NCBI RefSeq assembly: GCF_014196515.1
Contig: NZ_JACIDV010000001.1
Span: forward strand, 372,001 to 436,000
Origin: Rhizobium skierniewicense
GTDB lineage: Bacteria; Pseudomonadota; Alphaproteobacteria; Rhizobiales; Rhizobiaceae
Length of the DNA stretch: 64,000 nucleotides
Reading direction: 5' to 3'
Part shown: piece after piece, positions 55,975-64,000 of the stretch
How positions within the stretch are numbered: position 1 is the first letter of the stretch
How the letters are laid out: each line of letters opens with the position of its first letter
The notes under the pieces: generated by a model
What the model was told of the DNA's origin: nothing
Seen by the model: only the letters and a program-made list of their open reading frames with translations
The model's database searches: none
Position numbers and translations under genes: made by a program

Positions 55975-57417
55975 ATGGCAGCCAAGACGACACTCAACGC
56001 GAAGAACCTAGAGGTGCTCGGCGCACAAAGGCTTGCCGAGCTTCTCATTGAGATCAGCACTGGCAGCGCCGCACACAAGCGTCGTCTCCGGATGGAGATC
56101 GCAGGCAGCCACAGCAGCGCGGATGTTTCCAGAGAGGTTCGCAAGAGGCTGTCAACGATCATGCGCGCCCGTACATTCATCGATTGGCGCAAGGTCAAGG
56201 CAATGAAGATGGACCTGGAGACCCAGCGCAAGACGATCGTTGATGCCGTTGCGCCGCATGACCCCGCCGAGGCCTTCGAGCTGATCTGGCAGTTCCTGGC
56301 GGTCGCAGATCCGCTGTTTGGGCGGTCGGACGACGGCAGCGGTTTGTTGATCCAGAGCTTCCATCAGGCATGCCATGATGCCGGGGCGATCGCCAAGGCT
56401 GCGAATATCGACATCGACGTGCTCTCCGAAAAGATATTCACGGCATTGCAGGACAACGGCTATGGCCAGTTTGACCGGCTGATCACGGCCATGATCCCAG
56501 CTCTGGAGAATGAGGGCCTTACGCGTCTCAGAGCGCTTTTTGTCACCTGGTCGAAAGAACCGAAAGAGAAAGCTCGCAAGACGGACCGGACAGTCATCGG
56601 TTGGAGCAGTGCTGGCGCGATCTACGAGGACGAGGTCTACGGCAACCATAAAGACCTCACAATCCGCATCGCTCTCCAGGAAATCGCTGACGCTTTGGGC
56701 GACGTGGATGCCTATATCGCACAACAGCCCGAAAAGACACGCGCAACGCCGATGGTTGCAGCAGACATCGCCAACCGCCTCGTATCAGCGGGACGAGCCG
56801 AAGAAGCTTTAGAGGTGCTCGACAAAGTTGAGACGAACAGACGAACGGATGTCCCCTTCGAGTGGGAGTTGGCCCGTATTCAGGCGCTGGACGCACTAGG
56901 GCGTGGTCAAGAAGCCCAGGCATTCCGGTGGAGGTGTTTTGAGCAGTCGTTGAACGATGAGCATCTGCGCGCCTATGTCAAACGCCTGCCCGACTTCGAT
57001 GACATTGAGGCGGAGGCGAAGGCGTTCGGCTACGCGCAGGCATTCCCGAACGTCCATCGTGCTCTGCACTTTTTCCTGCGCTGGCCCTCACCAGCAGAGG
57101 CAGCAAAGCTGGTCATGAAGCGAGAGGCGGAGCTGGATGGGGACCTCTACGGACTGATGACGCCGGTTGCGGACGCACTGTCCGCGAAACAGCCGCTAGC
57201 AGCGACAGTCGTCCTTCGATCCATGATCGACTTCACTCTGAGAAATGGCCGATCGAGCCGATACAAGCACGCAGCACGACACCTTGCAGAATGCGGCTCG
57301 CTGGCGAGCCAAATCGAGGACTTCGGGAGCAGACAGTCGCACGATGCTTATGTCGCTGACCTGAAACGAGAGTACGGGCGGAAGTCGGGGTTCTGGAGCC
57401 AGGTGCAGTCATCCTAG
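55975..57417 (+). CDS. DUF6880 family protein
   Basis: A 480-residue, largely helical soluble protein of the DUF6880 family, known from many Alphaproteobacteria and without an assigned function. Family-like stretches are NAKNLEVLGAQRLAELLIEIS near the start, RMEIAGSHSSADVSREVRKRL, and SFIDW-like TFIDWRKVKAMKMDLE near 65. The second half looks like helical repeats of the TPR kind (RLVSAGRAEEALEVLDKVE, QALDALGRGQEAQAFRWR). It is monocistronic in an accessory region, 140 bases after the possible mini-protein. Confidence 0.85.
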   Translation: MAAKTTLNAKNLEVLGAQRLAELLIEISTGSAAHKRRLRMEIAGSHSSADVSREVRKRLSTIMRARTFIDWRKVKAMKMDLETQRKTIVDAVAPHDPAEAFELIWQFLAVADPLFGRSDDGSGLLIQSFHQACHDAGAIAKAANIDIDVLSEKIFTALQDNGYGQFDRLITAMIPALENEGLTRLRALFVTWSKEPKEKARKTDRTVIGWSSAGAIYEDEVYGNHKDLTIRIALQEIADALGDVDAYIAQQPEKTRATPMVAADIANRLVSAGRAEEALEVLDKVETNRRTDVPFEWELARIQALDALGRGQEAQAFRWRCFEQSLNDEHLRAYVKRLPDFDDIEAEAKAFGYAQAFPNVHRALHFFLRWPSPAEAAKLVMKREAELDGDLYGLMTPVADALSAKQPLAATVVLRSMIDFTLRNGRSSRYKHAARHLAECGSLASQIEDFGSRQSHDAYVADLKREYGRKSGFWSQVQSS

Positions 57418-57653
57418 CCCGAGCTTGCGAGCGTCCTTCGAGTGTCCGTGCCATCGCCATGTGATCTCCAATCGACATTGAAGATCACGCACAGGATGCG
57501 CCTGAAGGGAGTTCCCGGTATGATTCTGGCGGATTTTTGAACCTGAGAGCCTTAAACTAACTCTGTCTCTCGATGTTGCCTCACGTGCTGCAACGCCTAT
57601 CTTCACGGCCTCGCAAATGTAATAAGAAATTCCGAACCAATGGAGCGCAGCTT

Positions 57654-58478
57654 GTGATCAGAGATACTCAGGAACAAAGCATTGTCGATGGCCTATCCCA
57701 GCGACACGGCGTCAGCCAAGGCGTCATCGAGCATCTCACAATGGCGTTGATTGCAGGCAACACCAATCAGGCGCAGTTCAATCACTCCGAGCTTGGCGGG
57801 ATGGGGCAATGGTCGAACGGCGGCATGATCATGGTCGGAGACATGTTCAACAATGGCCTGAAGCATCGCGTTGACATGCTCTGCTCCGAGATCGCCGATC
57901 ACATAAGGTCAGGTAGACTGTCTGGCCCGAAACTGGATCGGCCTCATCAGTCTCAAAGCCAGGGAAACGGTAACAGCTTTTTCTACCAGTCGAGTTCGCA
58001 AAACAGCTCCTGGCCGCAACATCTGGGACAGGCGTCGTCAACGGGTTCCCAGAACAACCTCCGCTACGCGTTCTTTCCGGCAAGCCGCCGGTTGGCCATC
58101 GATGTCAACGGACAGATCACTGTCTACGATACTCAAGATCACAACATTGGCGGCTTTTCCCAGCAACAGAGCGGCGACCAGTCCCTGACCTTCACATCCC
58201 AGCATGGTCTTATCCGTGTGGCTGATCTCGATATCGTCCCCACGAGCGACAACCCGGACGCGCCCCAAGTCCCACAGAGTGCGGCTCGGATACAGATGCA
58301 GCCAGCGGAAGTTCCGCCAATGGCGCCTCCAAGTGTAAGCGCGGTTCCAGAACAGACAGCTTTCCACCAAGACGACATCATCAGCAAAATCGAGCGGCTC
58401 GCAGGTCTGCGTTCAAAAGGTATAATTTCAGACGAAGAATTTGCCGCCAAAAAGACAGAGCTACTTGACCGACTATGA
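57654..58478 (+). CDS. SHOCT-domain protein
   Basis: A 274-residue protein with a short helical N-terminal domain (1-80; TQEQSIVDGLSQRHGVSQGVIEHL and GQWSNGGMIMVGDMFN), a Gln/Ser-rich linker (about 90-135), a beta-rich middle and a C-terminal SHOCT domain (about 242-274; ISKIERLAGLRSKGIISDEEFAAKKTELL). SHOCT modules mediate oligomerisation. GTG at 57654 has GGAG 8 bases upstream and starts at the first conserved-looking helix, so I prefer it over the ATG at 57573. Function unknown. It is the last gene before tRNA-Ser. Confidence 0.82.
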   Translation: MIRDTQEQSIVDGLSQRHGVSQGVIEHLTMALIAGNTNQAQFNHSELGGMGQWSNGGMIMVGDMFNNGLKHRVDMLCSEIADHIRSGRLSGPKLDRPHQSQSQGNGNSFFYQSSSQNSSWPQHLGQASSTGSQNNLRYAFFPASRRLAIDVNGQITVYDTQDHNIGGFSQQQSGDQSLTFTSQHGLIRVADLDIVPTSDNPDAPQVPQSAARIQMQPAEVPPMAPPSVSAVPEQTAFHQDDIISKIERLAGLRSKGIISDEEFAAKKTELLDRL

Positions 58479-58635: not shown

Positions 58636-58725
58636 TGGCGGAGAGGGTGGGATTTGAACCCACGATACCCTTGCAGGTATGCCGCATTTCGAGTGCGGTG
58701 CATTCGACCACTCTGCCACCTCTCC
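58636..58725 (-). tRNA. tRNA-Ser (anticodon CGA)
   Basis: A 90-base class II tRNA with encoded CCA. The acceptor stem GGAGAGG pairs with CCTCTCC, the discriminator is G, the anticodon loop is CTCGAAA (anticodon CGA at 58689-58691, minus strand), there is a long variable arm, and the T arm contains GGGTTCAAATCCC. It reads UCG serine codons. Its 3' end faces the accessory region on the left. Confidence 0.97.
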
Positions 58726-58899: not shown

Positions 58900-58925
58900 G
58901 GAACAAGTTCCCGGTTTTCGTGTTT
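58900..58925 (+). promoter_or_regulatory. EcfG-type promoter of the FGase/QEGLA/ATP-grasp operon
   Basis: GGAAC (58900-58904), 17 bases and GTTT (58922-58925) match the EcfG/RpoE2 pattern with the same spacing as at 49260. The downstream ATG at 58951 is 26 bases away. This places the three-gene operon under the general stress response. Confidence 0.65.
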
Positions 58926-58950
58926 CCAAATCAACGTATGAGGGGGAAAC

Positions 58951-59769
58951 ATGACAAATGGCGTCGCGGAAACGGCTCGTGGAGAACAGCAATATTGGTC
59001 GGTTGTATCAGGTGATTCTCCCGTCATCGCCACAGCCATTCACGATGGTCATGCAACGCGCTCTGAGGTCGAGGAACTGATGGCGCTGTCTGGCGCGCAG
59101 CGGCTTCGGGAAGAAGACCCGTTCACAGCCGATATGATCGCTGGACTGGTCAACCGCGTTGTTGTCAACCACTCCCGGTTTGAAGTCGATCTCAACCGTG
59201 CAAAAGATGAGGCGATTTACCTTGAGCCGCAGCAGGCATGGGGGCTAGAGGTGTGGAAGGACAGACCGCCCGAACAGGTGATTTTAAGATCCCTCAATTT
59301 TCACGATGACTATTATGCCACGCTCGAGCATCTGCTGATGCAAATGCAGGCTCGTCACGGAGCATTCGTGCTTCTTGATGTTCACAGCTACAATCATCGC
59401 CGCGATGGTGCGGACGAAAAGCCTACAGCGCAAGCCAAGGCGCCTGATGTCAACATCGGCACGATCTCGATGCAGAGAGACCGCTGGGCGGATGTGATCG
59501 ACGCGACGATAGAGCACTTTAGCGCTGCCAAGATCGGCGGGCGACGCCTTGATGTGCGGGAAAATGTAGCTTTTCAAGGCAAGGGCGAACAGACACGCTT
59601 CGTGCATGAGCGCTTTCCTCAAAATGGCTGCGCGATTGCAATCGAGTTCAAGAAAATCTTTATGGACGAGTGGACAGGCGAGCCGGACGTCTCGATGATT
59701 CAGGATATCGGCAAAGCGATCCAATCGCTTGAACCAATCCTTGAGGATCTGCTGGCGGGGCGCAGATGA
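58951..59769 (+). CDS. N-formylglutamate amidohydrolase-like protein
   Basis: Zinc-dependent amidohydrolase of the N-formylglutamate deformylase family, 272 residues. The expected signals are SPVIATAIHDGH near the start, NRVVVNHSRFEVDLNRAKDEAIY near 70 and LLDVHSYNHRRDG near 149, which hold the His, Glu and Arg residues of the active site. No histidine-degradation gene is near, so its role is probably not in HutG-type histidine catabolism. AGGGGGAAAC precedes the ATG. It overlaps the next gene by 4 bases and is always seen here with a QEGLA protein and an ATP-grasp ligase. Confidence 0.88.
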   Translation: MTNGVAETARGEQQYWSVVSGDSPVIATAIHDGHATRSEVEELMALSGAQRLREEDPFTADMIAGLVNRVVVNHSRFEVDLNRAKDEAIYLEPQQAWGLEVWKDRPPEQVILRSLNFHDDYYATLEHLLMQMQARHGAFVLLDVHSYNHRRDGADEKPTAQAKAPDVNIGTISMQRDRWADVIDATIEHFSAAKIGGRRLDVRENVAFQGKGEQTRFVHERFPQNGCAIAIEFKKIFMDEWTGEPDVSMIQDIGKAIQSLEPILEDLLAGRR

Positions 59770-61640
59770 GTGCGTCACAAACCAAGGACTTTACTGAAAC
59801 AAATCGAGGCCTGGAACAGGTCGCAGCGCTCTTGGGTGAGGGGAAGGCCATTCGGCAGGATATTGGCCTTGATGGACGGCTGCACATCGACAGACCATTG
59901 CCTTTCATCTGCCTGCACCTCATCAACGGCGCAAATGGGCTTGCGGCGCGTGACATCGCGGCTGCAAATGCGTCCTATCTGATTGCCGCCGACGTTGCGG
60001 AAGCGATGCCGATTCTGGATCTGGTCGGCACCGAGATGAAAAAGCGTTTCGGCGCCTTCATCGTGCTTGATATGGGCGAGTTGGAACACGACGTCCTCTT
60101 GGCGGACGATTCGCCATTTTTGCCGCAGTACGACGTGAGGGTCTCCGCCACGCCGGACCTCGAGGCGCAACATGCGGAGCGTGTTTTTGTCAAAGCCGTT
60201 TGCGACGCTGATATTCGGTTTCGGACGCCTCGCATTATCTACCCGGACGCTGAAAACAATCCCGTCTCTCATCTGAAGGCAGCCGGGCTGCGATTTTCCT
60301 GTATCGGCGTACGCTTCGCGCCCATTTATCGCCAACCGGAATCGGGTGCGGATTACCCCGGGCTTCGCGAAACGATGATTGCGGATCTGTTCGATGCGGG
60401 ACTGCGTGCGTTTGCTGCATTTTCCAGCACGTCGGACATCTTGAAAGTCACGTCTCATCGCGCATTGGGCCGTAAGGCATTTGTGGACGCTGTGCGCAGA
60501 GCCGATCGCTCGGTCGATGATATCGCGGCATCATTCGATTTTCTGCTTTCGGTGACGCCGATCAACGCACGCAAGGCGCTTGCAGACTTCAAAGCGAGCA
60601 ATTTTCAGTCCGCTCCGCATTTTCTTTATCGTCCTTTGAGTGTCGATATCGAGGAGCAGAAACGCAAACTTTATTCGGTGGCTTTTGATCACCTGGAAGA
60701 CCCTGTCCTTTACAATCTCTACCGTGAAAAACAGCAGGAGATCGATCTCCAGCTGAGTATGCTGGCACATCTCCACAAACGTCAGTTCACAGATTTCAGC
60801 CGGGCGCTTTACGGCTCTGTCGAGCCGTCCTTACTTGCTCTTGCCCAGACCGTCCTGGGGCAATGCCCTCGTCCAGATCATGGCGAGGAGATTGCCATGG
60901 CGGATTGTTACGAGGTAACGAAAAAAGCGCGCGAAATGGTGAATGCCTATCACCTCGAAGATCCTACGTTCGACGCGCGTGTTGATATCCGTGACGATCT
61001 GCCGCCGGGTTTGATGGTATCTGGCAGCAAGTTGTTCGTGTCGCGACACACAGTCATGGAAAAAAGACGACTGGATGCATTGTTGCATCATGAGATCGGC
61101 GTTCATCTTCTCACCTATTTCAATGGCTCCGCGCAGGGTCTGCGGCTCTTCAGAACCGGGCTTTCGGGATACGAGGGTGTGCAGGAGGGCTTGGCCGTTC
61201 TGGCTGAATATCTCGCAGGAGGCATGACGCGTGATCGATTGCGGTTGATCGCCGGGCGCGCTGTTGGTTGTGCCGCGATGCTGGATGGTGCTGAATTTCT
61301 GGAGACGTATCGCTTGATGACGAGCGAACATGGCTTTGATGATGCGGCCGCGTTCAACATGGTGCTGAGAATTTATCGCGGGGGAGGGCTTTCGAAGGAC
61401 GCAATCTATCTTCGCGGACTGAGTGAAATCCTCGAGCATTTGAAAAAAGGTGGCTCACTCGATCCGTTCTGGATGGGAAAGATTTCTGCGGCTCATTTTC
61501 CCATCATGCAGGAACTGGCGTTGCGCGGCCTTCTGCGTTCACCCGTCATCAGACCCGCATTTCTCGGTTCTACCGAAGCCCAGGAACGCCTCGACATCAT
61601 ACGATCAGGATTACCGATAGCCGAGATGGCAACCTTGTAA
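59766..61640 (+). CDS. QEGLA-motif zinc carboxypeptidase-like protein (DUF1704)
   Basis: A 624-residue protein of the DUF1704 family, annotated elsewhere as flavohemoglobin expression-modulating QEGLA protein and related to eukaryotic MATCAP tyrosine carboxypeptidases. The C-terminal half has the zinc-binding HEIGVH (H442-H447) and the namesake QEGLA (473-477), whose Glu474 is a good third metal ligand. The first 250 residues form a separate alpha/beta domain that resembles the N-formylglutamate amidohydrolase fold only weakly. It starts in the stop of the preceding gene and ends 10 bases before the ATP-grasp gene. It is probably a peptidase that acts on a C-terminal residue; target unknown. 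Confidence 0.9.
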   Translation: MSASQTKDFTETNRGLEQVAALLGEGKAIRQDIGLDGRLHIDRPLPFICLHLINGANGLAARDIAAANASYLIAADVAEAMPILDLVGTEMKKRFGAFIVLDMGELEHDVLLADDSPFLPQYDVRVSATPDLEAQHAERVFVKAVCDADIRFRTPRIIYPDAENNPVSHLKAAGLRFSCIGVRFAPIYRQPESGADYPGLRETMIADLFDAGLRAFAAFSSTSDILKVTSHRALGRKAFVDAVRRADRSVDDIAASFDFLLSVTPINARKALADFKASNFQSAPHFLYRPLSVDIEEQKRKLYSVAFDHLEDPVLYNLYREKQQEIDLQLSMLAHLHKRQFTDFSRALYGSVEPSLLALAQTVLGQCPRPDHGEEIAMADCYEVTKKAREMVNAYHLEDPTFDARVDIRDDLPPGLMVSGSKLFVSRHTVMEKRRLDALLHHEIGVHLLTYFNGSAQGLRLFRTGLSGYEGVQEGLAVLAEYLAGGMTRDRLRLIAGRAVGCAAMLDGAEFLETYRLMTSEHGFDDAAAFNMVLRIYRGGGLSKDAIYLRGLSEILEHLKKGGSLDPFWMGKISAAHFPIMQELALRGLLRSPVIRPAFLGSTEAQERLDIIRSGLPIAEMATL

Positions 61641-61650
61641 GGGAGGACAC

Positions 61651-62697
61651 ATGCGTATCGCTTTTTTCGTGAATTCAATCGAAGGCGAGCAGCCGACATT
61701 CGCGACGGGACTGCTGGCTATGGCAGCACTCAACCGTGGCCACGAGGTCATCTATCTGACGCCGGGTGATTTCACGTTGCGACGGGACGACTCGCTTGTG
61801 GTGCATGGCCTCGTGGTTCCACGCCAGAAATACAAGAAGACCGAAAACTTCCACGCGCTGCTTCAGGAAAAGAAACTGGAGCGGGAGACGATCGACATCG
61901 AGGATATAGACGTGCTGATGCTGCGGAATGACCCCTCTCTGGATCAAACCGCACGTCCATGGGCGGTTCATTCTGGTATTCTGTTCGGTCGTCTGGCCGA
62001 GCAGCGGGGCGTCGTTGTCTTGAACGATCCTGAAGGCCTGGCGCTCGCTCAGAACAAGCTCTATTTCCAGAGCTTTCCAGAAATCGTCAGACCGACGACG
62101 CTCATCTCGCGCAACGTCGAGGAAATCAGAGCCTTCGCCGATGCCCACCCGAAGGGCGTCATCGTCAAGCCTCTGCAGGGTTCGGGCGGCAGAAATGTCT
62201 TCAAGATCGGATCCAGTAAGGAGACCAATCTCAACCAGATTTTCGAGGCCGTCAGCATCGAAGGATATTTGATTGCGCAGGCCTATCTGCCTGCCGCAAA
62301 AGAGGGTGACATTCGCTTTTTCATGATGAATGGCGAGCCGTTGATGCGCGACGGTCAGTATGCCGCCCTTCGTCGTGTGCCTGCAAAGGGCGACCTGCGA
62401 TCCAACATCCACGCCAGCGGCACGGCAGAGGCCGTCGAAGTGAATGATGCGGTGATCGCACTGGCAGAAATGATGCGGCCGAAACTGGTGGAAGACGGCA
62501 TGTTCTTGGTCGGCCTCGATATCGTGGGAGACAAGATACTCGAGGTCAACGTCTTTTCACCCGGCGGCCTTTCGCACATTCGTGAACTCGCGAATGTGGA
62601 TTTTACCGATACGATTATCGAAGCCATCGAAAAGAAAGTCGCCATGCAGCAGGCATCTGCGGGCATGCTGAACAACCGGTTGCTGGCGACGCTGTAG
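61651..62697 (+). CDS. ATP-grasp ligase, glutathione synthetase-like
   Basis: ATP-grasp enzyme of 348 residues, like the GshB/RimK group. Landmarks: IAFFVNSIEG at the start, NDPEGLALAQNKLYF near 130, the ATP-lid glycine loop KPLQGSGGRNVF near 172, DIRFFMMNGEPL near 219 and the metal-binding LEVNVFSPGG near 296-305. It forms an amide bond between a carboxylate and an amine, through an acyl phosphate. As this genome region has no gshA next to it and the partner genes are an amidohydrolase and a carboxypeptidase, I read it as a dedicated peptide ligase rather than true GshB. GGGAGG precedes the ATG. Confidence 0.88.
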   Translation: MRIAFFVNSIEGEQPTFATGLLAMAALNRGHEVIYLTPGDFTLRRDDSLVVHGLVVPRQKYKKTENFHALLQEKKLERETIDIEDIDVLMLRNDPSLDQTARPWAVHSGILFGRLAEQRGVVVLNDPEGLALAQNKLYFQSFPEIVRPTTLISRNVEEIRAFADAHPKGVIVKPLQGSGGRNVFKIGSSKETNLNQIFEAVSIEGYLIAQAYLPAAKEGDIRFFMMNGEPLMRDGQYAALRRVPAKGDLRSNIHASGTAEAVEVNDAVIALAEMMRPKLVEDGMFLVGLDIVGDKILEVNVFSPGGLSHIRELANVDFTDTIIEAIEKKVAMQQASAGMLNNRLLATL

Positions 62698-62718: not shown

Positions 62719-64000
62719 TCACGCGTTGCGAAGCCGCCCTTGCATCAGATCGATGACGGCACGGGCGGCTTCCAGCACGTTGGTGCCGGGGCCAAAAACA
62801 GCCGCCACGCCATTGGCGAGCAGGAACTCGTAATCCTGCCGGGGAACCACACCGCCCACGATAACGATAACATTCTCCGCACCCTTGTCTTTCAGGGCTT
62901 GGACCAGTTGTGGCGCAAGCGTCTTGTGACCCGCAGCGAGCGATGACATTCCCACCACATGAACCTTGTGTTCGACGGCGAGCGTTGCAGCCTCATCCGG
63001 TGTCTGGAACAAGGGGCCAGCCAGGACATCGAAACCGATATCACCAAAGGCCGACGCGATGATTTTTGCGCCGCGATCATGCCCGTCCTGACCGAGTTTC
63101 GCGATCAACATTTTCGGTTTCGAACCAACAATGTTGGACAGTTCACCCAAGCGGGTACACAGCGTTATATATTCCGGGTCGTCCTCATATGCGGCGCCGT
63201 ACACATCATGCACAACTTCCGGAACTGCTGTATGGTCTCCGAAAACGCTGCGCATCGCGTCTGAAATTTCTCCGACGCTTGCGCGGGCGCGGGCGGCTTC
63301 AATCGCGGATTCCAGCAAATTGCCGTTCCCGGTGCGGGCAATTTCGGTCAATCTTGAAAGAGCTGCATCGACGGATGCTTGATTTCGTTGGCGGCGAAGC
63401 ATCTCCAAGCGTTTGATCTGCGATGTGCGAACGACGGTGTTATCGATATCAAGGATGTCGATGGGGTCTTCATTTTCGAGACGATACTTGTTGACACCGA
63501 CAATGATTTCCTCCCCACGGTCGACGGCTGCCTGTCGCTTGGTGGCCGCTTCCTCGATCAACCTTTTCGGCAGGCCATCATCGACGGCTTTCGTCATCCC
63601 ACCGAGCGCCTCGACCTCCTCCATCAGGGCCCACGCTTTTTCCGCGAGGTCGTTCGTCAGGCTTTCGACGTAGTAAGAGCCAGCCAGCGGATCGATGACT
63701 TTCGTGACGCCGGTTTCGTGCTGGAGGATAAGCTGGGTATTGCGGGCAATGCGGGCGGAGAAATCGGTCGGTAGTGCCATGGCTTCGTCGAGCGCATTGG
63801 TGTGGAGCGATTGCGTTCCGCCGAGTGCTGCCGAAAGTGCTTCATAGGCAGTGCGGATGATGTTGTTGTAAGGGTCCTGCTCCTGAAGCGATACGCCCGA
63901 TGTCTGGCAGTGGGTGCGCAGCATCGAAGACGATGCCTTCTGCGGCTTGAATTCTTCCATGATCCGCGCCCAAAGCAACCGTGCGGCGCGCAGCTTTGCC
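62719..64000 (-). CDS. scpA: Methylmalonyl-CoA mutase (C-terminal part, runs off window)
   Basis: The 3' two thirds of an adenosylcobalamin-dependent mutase that converts (R)-methylmalonyl-CoA to succinyl-CoA; the start lies beyond 64000. The frame is open to the edge (AARLLWARIM at the boundary). The substrate-barrel end has HTNALDEAMALPTDF and DPLAGSYYVE near the start of the visible part. The C-terminal B12 domain shows GQDGHDRGAKII, the DxHxxG motif whose His binds cobalt, and the later GGVVPRQDYEFL. It converges with the ATP-grasp gene. The single-chain arrangement (catalytic plus B12 domain) is normal for this enzyme. Confidence 0.95.
   Translation of the reverse strand, partial: AKLRAARLLWARIMEEFKPQKASSSMLRTHCQTSGVSLQEQDPYNNIIRTAYEALSAALGGTQSLHTNALDEAMALPTDFSARIARNTQLILQHETGVTKVIDPLAGSYYVESLTNDLAEKAWALMEEVEALGGMTKAVDDGLPKRLIEEAATKRQAAVDRGEEIIVGVNKYRLENEDPIDILDIDNTVVRTSQIKRLEMLRRQRNQASVDAALSRLTEIARTGNGNLLESAIEAARARASVGEISDAMRSVFGDHTAVPEVVHDVYGAAYEDDPEYITLCTRLGELSNIVGSKPKMLIAKLGQDGHDRGAKIIASAFGDIGFDVLAGPLFQTPDEAATLAVEHKVHVVGMSSLAAGHKTLAPQLVQALKDKGAENVIVIVGGVVPRQDYEFLLANGVAAVFGPGTNVLEAARAVIDLMQGRLRNA

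Follow-up and report, generated by a model that had tools for sequence, protein, structure and literature searches.

The genome of Rhizobium skierniewicense carries three adjacent genes which code for an amidohydrolase of the N-formylglutamate amidohydrolase (FGase) family, a QEGLA protein with a MATCAP-type carboxypeptidase domain and a glutathione-synthetase-like ATP-grasp ligase, named here FG, QE and GS. They lie in a stretch of 64,000 nucleotides (GCF_014196515.1, contig NZ_JACIDV010000001.1, positions 372,001 to 436,000), which was analysed as a whole and is called the window. FG, QE and GS form a real, widespread and co-inherited three-enzyme unit (the module), which is likely under general-stress control in this organism and has osmotic links elsewhere. 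Its parts come from known families, and the unit is a form of the known ligase-plus-eraser kind. That the three enzymes together make and dismantle an amide-linked, peptide-type compound other than glutathione is a view we hold with about even confidence.

In a search of titles and the starts of abstracts, no description of the three genes as one system was found. A 2009 review on amidoligases by Iyer and colleagues reportedly may mention related neighbourhoods, and a prior mention is possible. Viewed as one system, the genes permit a testable hunt for the substrate, place the human MATCAP fold in a bacterial context and may point to a new osmotic or general-stress metabolite in plant-associated bacteria. 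The current labels ("glutathione synthase" or "synthetase", "N-formylglutamate amidohydrolase" and "flavohemoglobin expression-modulating QEGLA protein") mask the conserved unit, and a transcriptome paper, in its available text, takes the induced Photobacterium ligase for GshB (PMC10308900).

Conservation, co-occurrence and fusion of the three genes

In a scan of named genomes (best 80 QE loci of 547 confirmed), the order FG>QE>GS on one strand was found in 74 of the 80 loci. These include Alphaproteobacteria, Luteimonas, Magnetococcales, Planctomycetota, Gemmatimonadota, Verrucomicrobiota, Kiritimatiellota, Poribacteria, Acidobacteriota, Campylobacterota, Bacteroidota (Pontibacter) and Coriobacteriia; many of the non-proteobacterial loci come from metagenome bins, and genes are cut in some of them. 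Among the six exceptions, three contigs begin or end at the module (L182, L186, L195), two loci are without a detected FG (L196, L199) and one is rearranged (L197). Of the 75 loci that have FG, 60 have the QE start codon within the FG stop codon. The best match of the window's QE among these 80 loci is found in Agrobacterium rosae, with 82% identity.

The ligase and the long form of QE also occur together. GS exceeds its curated cut-off in 14 of 398 Pseudomonadota genomes, with a gap in score from 436 to 241 bits beneath. A QEGLA match is present in 47 genomes, and 13 of them were classed as having long or fused QE (by domain make-up in 11, the others being the window itself and G364, whose QE is cut and was classed by the adjoining GS), and all 13 are among the 14 with GS. 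The fourteenth (G300) is 82% complete, and 48 bases of contig precede its GS. Among the relatives searched, a QEGLA match was found in 37 of the 38 further genomes from the genus, versus seven of 162 other genomes. Chance gene order is ruled out by the 74 of 80 ordered loci together with the co-occurrence of GS and long QE.

Moreover, a survey of gene fusions, proposed with the original prediction, revealed GS followed by an FG-MATCAP fusion in six of 51 further loci and on two Photobacterium plasmids. In a tree of 78 QE rows, obtained after thinning of close alphaproteobacterial ones, the three-gene QE and the fused plus mid-length QE form two supported sister branches, apart from the short QEGLA proteins.

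Broken copies of the module were also seen. QE is split into two overlapping frames in another genome of the genus (G005, L111 5790-9570), with FG and GS intact. On the complete chromosome of Planctomycetes bacterium Pan216 (L177 9572-10939), GS lies in two consecutive pieces beside an intact FG and QE. All three genes are in pieces on a plasmid of Rhizobium sp. RCAM05350 (L191 7101-10899), which is due to decay or sequencing errors.

The amidohydrolase and the QEGLA protein

FG belongs to the PF05013 family (98.1 bits, cut-off 28.9). The family residues H31, G33, E54, E55, D56, D80, N82, R83, D143, H145 and E232 are intact and invariant across 31 aligned sequences. FG shares this family with the N-formylglutamate deformylase HutG. 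HutG itself was rejected as an identity for FG, which lies far under the cut-off of the HutG model (TIGR02017, 30.5 bits versus 278.75); the genome holds five further PF05013 proteins, each nearer to the family profile than FG. No solved structure was found for FG by sequence or profile search at the thresholds applied.

In one locus (L079 7161-10110, G286), QE is accompanied by an AstE/AspA-family gene where FG belongs, and there is no GS nearby. The substitute scores 126.6 bits as an AstE/AspA-type deacylase in Pfam (cut-off 25), and its best NCBIfam model is the ectoine-pathway deacetylase DoeB, far under the cut-off of that model. Judged by family, such a deacylase in FG's place would fit a role as acyl-amino-acid hydrolase.

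QE exceeds the cut-offs of both PF08014 MATCAP (321.6 bits, cut-off 27) and TIGR02421 QEGLA (424.6 bits, cut-off 338.65), and it has the HExxxH motif, the second glutamate (in QEGLA) and the fold of MATCAP enzymes. Across an alignment of 46 QE proteins (80 proteins thinned to 47, two left out and the window protein added), residues H442, E443, H447, Q473, E474 and G475 do not vary. The kinship of QE with MATCAP carboxypeptidases, which had been read from the letters alone, is thereby established. In comparison to the human MATCAP/TMCP tubulin carboxypeptidases, QE is bacterial, is joined to an FG-like domain, lies in an operon with a ligase and has no tubulin substrate.

The N-terminal domain of QE is harder to place. 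PF05013 had no match in 26 members; a Pfam scan returned no family for the window protein and families at chance level in the 26 members, and a profile search found no solved structure. The domain weakly resembles FGase by profile-profile comparison and by fold. Most of the conserved FG residues are gone from it, and it is a probable pseudo-FG.

The ligase and the question of glutathione

GS was scored at 185.3 bits by GSH-S_ATP (cut-off 23) and at 487.4 bits by NF009110/PRK12458 (cut-off 408). The family assignments first proposed for all three genes thus hold, as PF05013, PF08014/TIGR02421 and GSH-S_ATP/NF009110 are all above their cut-offs. GS has the ATP-grasp fold and core motifs in common with GshB, and it keeps the N-terminal GSH-S_N domain. 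The curated GshB models reject it (TIGR01380, 205.3 bits versus a cut-off of 299.05; NF003573, 222.3 versus 272). In 90% consensus sequences, GS (n=109) has NVFxPGG at the site of NVTSPT in GshB (n=25); GS from fused loci differs at this site, with NVL or NVM.

The original prediction depended on GS not being the only glutathione synthetase of its host. That objection fell away, as the genome holds a second, better GshB: the PF02955 protein at C7:38232-38747 reaches 246.7 bits, versus 187.2 for GS. GS is thus a second copy beside a normal GshB, and at least two PF02955 genes were counted in each of 15 genomes from the window's own class. Seven of 12 module genomes of other phyla (G842, G843, G844, G848, G849, G850, G851) have neither a PF04107 nor a PF04262 match, which counts against glutathione synthesis, although the completeness of the 12 genomes was not reported, which weakens every single absence. 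Two further points weaken this evidence. PF04107 is weakly matched (25-28 bits) in three of the 12 and clearly in two, and GS is the sole PF02955 match in G843, G848, G850 and G851, so that there just the absent gamma-glutamylcysteine ligase argues against glutathione.

In Sinorhizobium meliloti 2011, a gshB (SMc00419) mutant is reported to be without glutathione by high-performance liquid chromatography (PMC7063052, available text). The pSymB record of this strain (H36) matches FG and QE, and GS follows there in strain 1021 (L203). The module may have been off in the growth used for this mutant. Taken together, GS is probably not for glutathione synthesis.

A side pathway of glutathione or a related thiol, in which GS would produce a variant thiol peptide for recycling by the two hydrolases under stress, would agree with the retained GshB ATP-grasp motifs and GSH-S_N domain, with the GCS2-family protein and GshB of the host and with the four genomes in which GS is the only PF02955 ligase. 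The altered NVFxPGG motif, the seven genomes without a detectable gamma-glutamylcysteine ligase and the S. meliloti mutant, with the reservation given above, speak against it, and we consider it improbable.

GS is sometimes repeated: there are two tandem copies in L174 and three in L173, which suggests stepwise addition of more than one residue. In L173 (9857-13095, a Phycisphaerae bacterium), the three tandem copies are 61-67% identical, all are above the PRK12458 cut-off, and MscS and CorA genes follow.

Probable control by the general stress response

An EcfG-type promoter had been predicted ahead of the genes, and this claim is carried by a comparative test. The window promoter consists of GGAAC (58900-58904), a 16-base spacer and TGTT (58921-58924), with one mismatch to GGAAC-N16/17-CGTT. 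In the window alone, a loose motif search allowing two mismatches gave 193 matches versus 194 expected, no better than chance. For the comparison, the motif had to lie within 230 bases before the start of the FG profile and to consist of an exact GGAAC, a 16- or 17-base spacer and CGTT with no more than one mismatch. This motif was present in 50 of 69 distinct alphaproteobacterial FG upstream regions (the species are kin, so the 50 are not independent), and in 11 of these it was perfect. The controls gave a mean of 1.35 of 69 in 200 shuffles (by single letters, not dinucleotides), 2 of 69 for the reversed upstream regions and 9 of 69 for the reverse-complemented ones. These nine reverse-strand motifs are above the shuffles and perhaps serve divergent genes.

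EcfG is described as confined to Alphaproteobacteria (PMC3892343, available text), and none of 23 loci from other bacteria or Magnetococcales, where it is not expected, had the motif. The upstream promoter is thus conserved well beyond expectation, and the alphaproteobacterial operon is most likely turned on by the general-stress sigma factor EcfG, as judged from the upstream sequences. The available parts of the S. meliloti RpoE2 and transcription-start papers (PMC6180224, PMC3616915) make no mention of glutathione, of formylglutamate or of the locus tags looked for (SMb2136x-2138x), which were guesses.

Osmotic context and gene neighbours

Osmotic links come from expression data and from gene neighbours. 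In Photobacterium damselae at 1% NaCl, A0J47_RS17020 ("Glutathione synthase GshB") was reported to be up 38.42-fold and A0J47_RS17025, a QEGLA protein, 27.51-fold (PMC10308900, available text). MscS genes occur within 4 kb of the module in seven of 26 genomes (G839, G841, G844, G845, G852, G492, G304) versus 0.23 expected from 120 MscS-domain matches in 108.2 Mb (rounded sizes), with a nominal P of ~6e-9; in an eighth genome (G234), the distance is 4.0-4.4 kb. The 26 genomes lie outside the window's family and were picked for the module, not for channels; G286 (same locus as G846), G364, G300, G854, G855, G856 and the window's family were left out of the count, although they have the module or its GS. 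In L072, L173, L176, L187 and L190, MscS comes next in the same orientation. Overall, MscS was matched in 15 of 131 loci (some loci were fetched twice) and in none of 17 short-QEGLA loci, and CorA in six of the 131 (L081, L084, L173, L181, L183, L188), five of them confirmed by Pfam.

No neighbour family is common to most loci among the 45 clusters listed; MscS and CorA occur in a minority. Another explanation is salvage of cell-wall peptides, with the enzymes trimming and re-ligating peptidoglycan-derived peptides under envelope stress. Of 153 neighbour proteins, 63 were scanned, and in the 25 of 103 families listed, no gene for cell-wall peptides was conspicuous. We regard this explanation as highly improbable.

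In the Magnetococcales locus L192, an rlo-like operon lies directly 3' of FG-QE-GS. It codes for a retropepsin similar to RloA, a membrane protein similar to RloB (both score under the cut-offs of their NCBIfam models) and a TIGR02291 glutamate-ligase-like protein. In Pseudomonas aeruginosa, the rlo operon is tied to hypo-osmotic tolerance (PMC12239564, available text). It consists of an RloA retropepsin, an RloB inactive transglutaminase and an RloC ATP-grasp protein, and it resembles the module in combining a ligase and a hydrolase and in its hypo-osmotic link. The enzyme families differ, however, and RloA is an exported protein and RloB a membrane protein. Short RloC- and RloA-like frames between CorA and GS in another locus (L084 5796-6301, G304) are possibly remnants of an rlo operon.

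Proposed cycle and comparison with known ligase and eraser pairs

GshB-type ligases form an amide bond at a carboxylate, carboxypeptidases remove C-terminal residues, and FGase and AstE/AspA enzymes release amino acids from N-acyl groups. In the proposed cycle, GS would activate a carboxylate with ATP and couple an amino acid to it, a C-terminal residue would be taken off by the MATCAP domain, and FG would hydrolyse the amide of an acidic amino acid. QE probably holds FG beside the carboxypeptidase through its N-terminal FG-like domain, a docking role suggested by the fused form found in Photobacterium and others. In Alphaproteobacteria, EcfG would most likely switch the operon on, and a peptide solute or small peptide would be adjusted upon osmotic change. 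Low-salt induction, the MscS neighbours and the adjoining rlo-like operon point to such an osmotic adjustment.

Alternatively, the pair could modify proteins reversibly, with GS attaching one or more amino acids to a cellular protein, at its C-terminus or on a side chain, and the MATCAP domain removing them, like RimK/RimB on ribosomal protein S6 or the enzymes of tubulin tails. MATCAP/TMCP enzymes are reported to trim protein C-termini and to deglutamylate (PMC10499314, available text), and RimK/RimB is described as a bacterial ligase-eraser pair, an ATP-grasp ligase with a hydrolase acting on its product, sometimes fused (RimBK), as in the module (PMC11957791, available text). The retropepsin and glutamate-ligase-like genes adjoining the module in L192 would also suit this explanation. 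RimK/RimB is the closest working analogue, yet the families differ, and the module is therefore not a member of this system: GS is GshB-type (TIGR00768, 77.7 bits versus a cut-off of 143.4), and RimB is an aspartic retropepsin, whereas the eraser of the module is a MATCAP metallopeptidase, and the module has an FGase-family enzyme besides. The PF05618 retropepsin has no match in the three window proteins and was seen only as a neighbour in L192. Moreover, no linked target protein was seen among the 45 neighbour clusters listed, GshB-type ligases are known for small peptides, and FG has no obvious place in a protein-tail cycle. We consider protein-tail modification unlikely.

The original prediction had left open a reversible tail on peptides or proteins or a small molecule. 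This prediction is partly supported: the sequences show linkage, co-occurrence, fusion, folds, the promoter motif and a separation of GS from the curated glutathione synthetases. A small peptide other than glutathione, to which we give roughly balanced odds, was placed above a protein tail. A small peptide is favoured because the ligase is GshB-type, no linked target gene was seen and the osmotic neighbours fit a solute; this preference is a matter of judgement. More tentatively, and short of even confidence, the module may be a system of about ten bacterial phyla in which a GshB-like ligase and a MATCAP carboxypeptidase, with help from an FGase-family hydrolase, write and erase a peptide for osmotic or general-stress adaptation. 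It would be a bacterial counterpart of the tubulin-tail erasers with its own writer; it would act on a peptide solute or tag other than glutathione, and MscS channels would be its partners.

Several points weigh against the proposed peptide cycle. EcfG responds to many stresses, of which osmotic stress is just one. MscS is absent within 4 kb in 19 of the 26 genomes, and this distance was set after the first loci had been viewed. We infer that the two induced Photobacterium genes are the GS>fusion pair from their annotation, gene numbers and other Photobacterium (PMC10308900, available text). FG was not found beside QE in L196 and L199, QE of L079 is flanked by neither FG nor GS, and Vibrio HDW18 has a fused QE without GS nearby. 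Conserved residues have been lost from the FG domain of the fused L072 protein as well. In Z score, the FG-like fold of QE ties with M14 carboxypeptidases, and residue loss in this domain is no proof of inactivity.

The operon in Rhizobium skierniewicense

The original prediction had the three genes overlapping or 10 bases apart, and the open reading frame calls agree: FG and QE overlap by four bases (ATGA), and the gap between QE and GS is 10 bases (Table 1). As a tRNA-Ser lies upstream on the opposite strand and a convergent methylmalonyl-CoA mutase gene downstream, the operon is most likely limited to FG, QE and GS, judging by gene layout.

Table 1 Features of the FG-QE-GS operon and its borders (positions in the window)
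Feature	Positions	Strand	Remarks
tRNA-Ser	58636-58725	-	upstream of FG
EcfG-type promoter GGAAC-N16-TGTT	58900-58924	+	26 bases before FG start codon
FG, FGase-family amidohydrolase	58951-59769	+	272 amino acids; open reading frame call and PF05013 match
QE, QEGLA/MATCAP protein	59766-61640	+	624 amino acids
QE N-terminal domain, about residues 1-250, FGase/M14-type fold	59766-60515	+	probable pseudo-FG
QE C-terminal MATCAP-type metallocarboxypeptidase domain	60516-61640	+	HEIGVH, residues 442-447; QEGLA, residues 473-477
GS, glutathione-synthetase-like ATP-grasp ligase, subfamily PRK12458	61651-62697	+	348 amino acids
Methylmalonyl-CoA mutase open reading frame	62719-63978	convergent to GS	downstream neighbour

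Upstream of the tRNA-Ser, the window also holds an open reading frame with a C-terminal SHOCT domain (57573-58478; PF09851, 32.7 bits). A full-length DUF6880 protein is encoded at 55975-57417 (627 bits).

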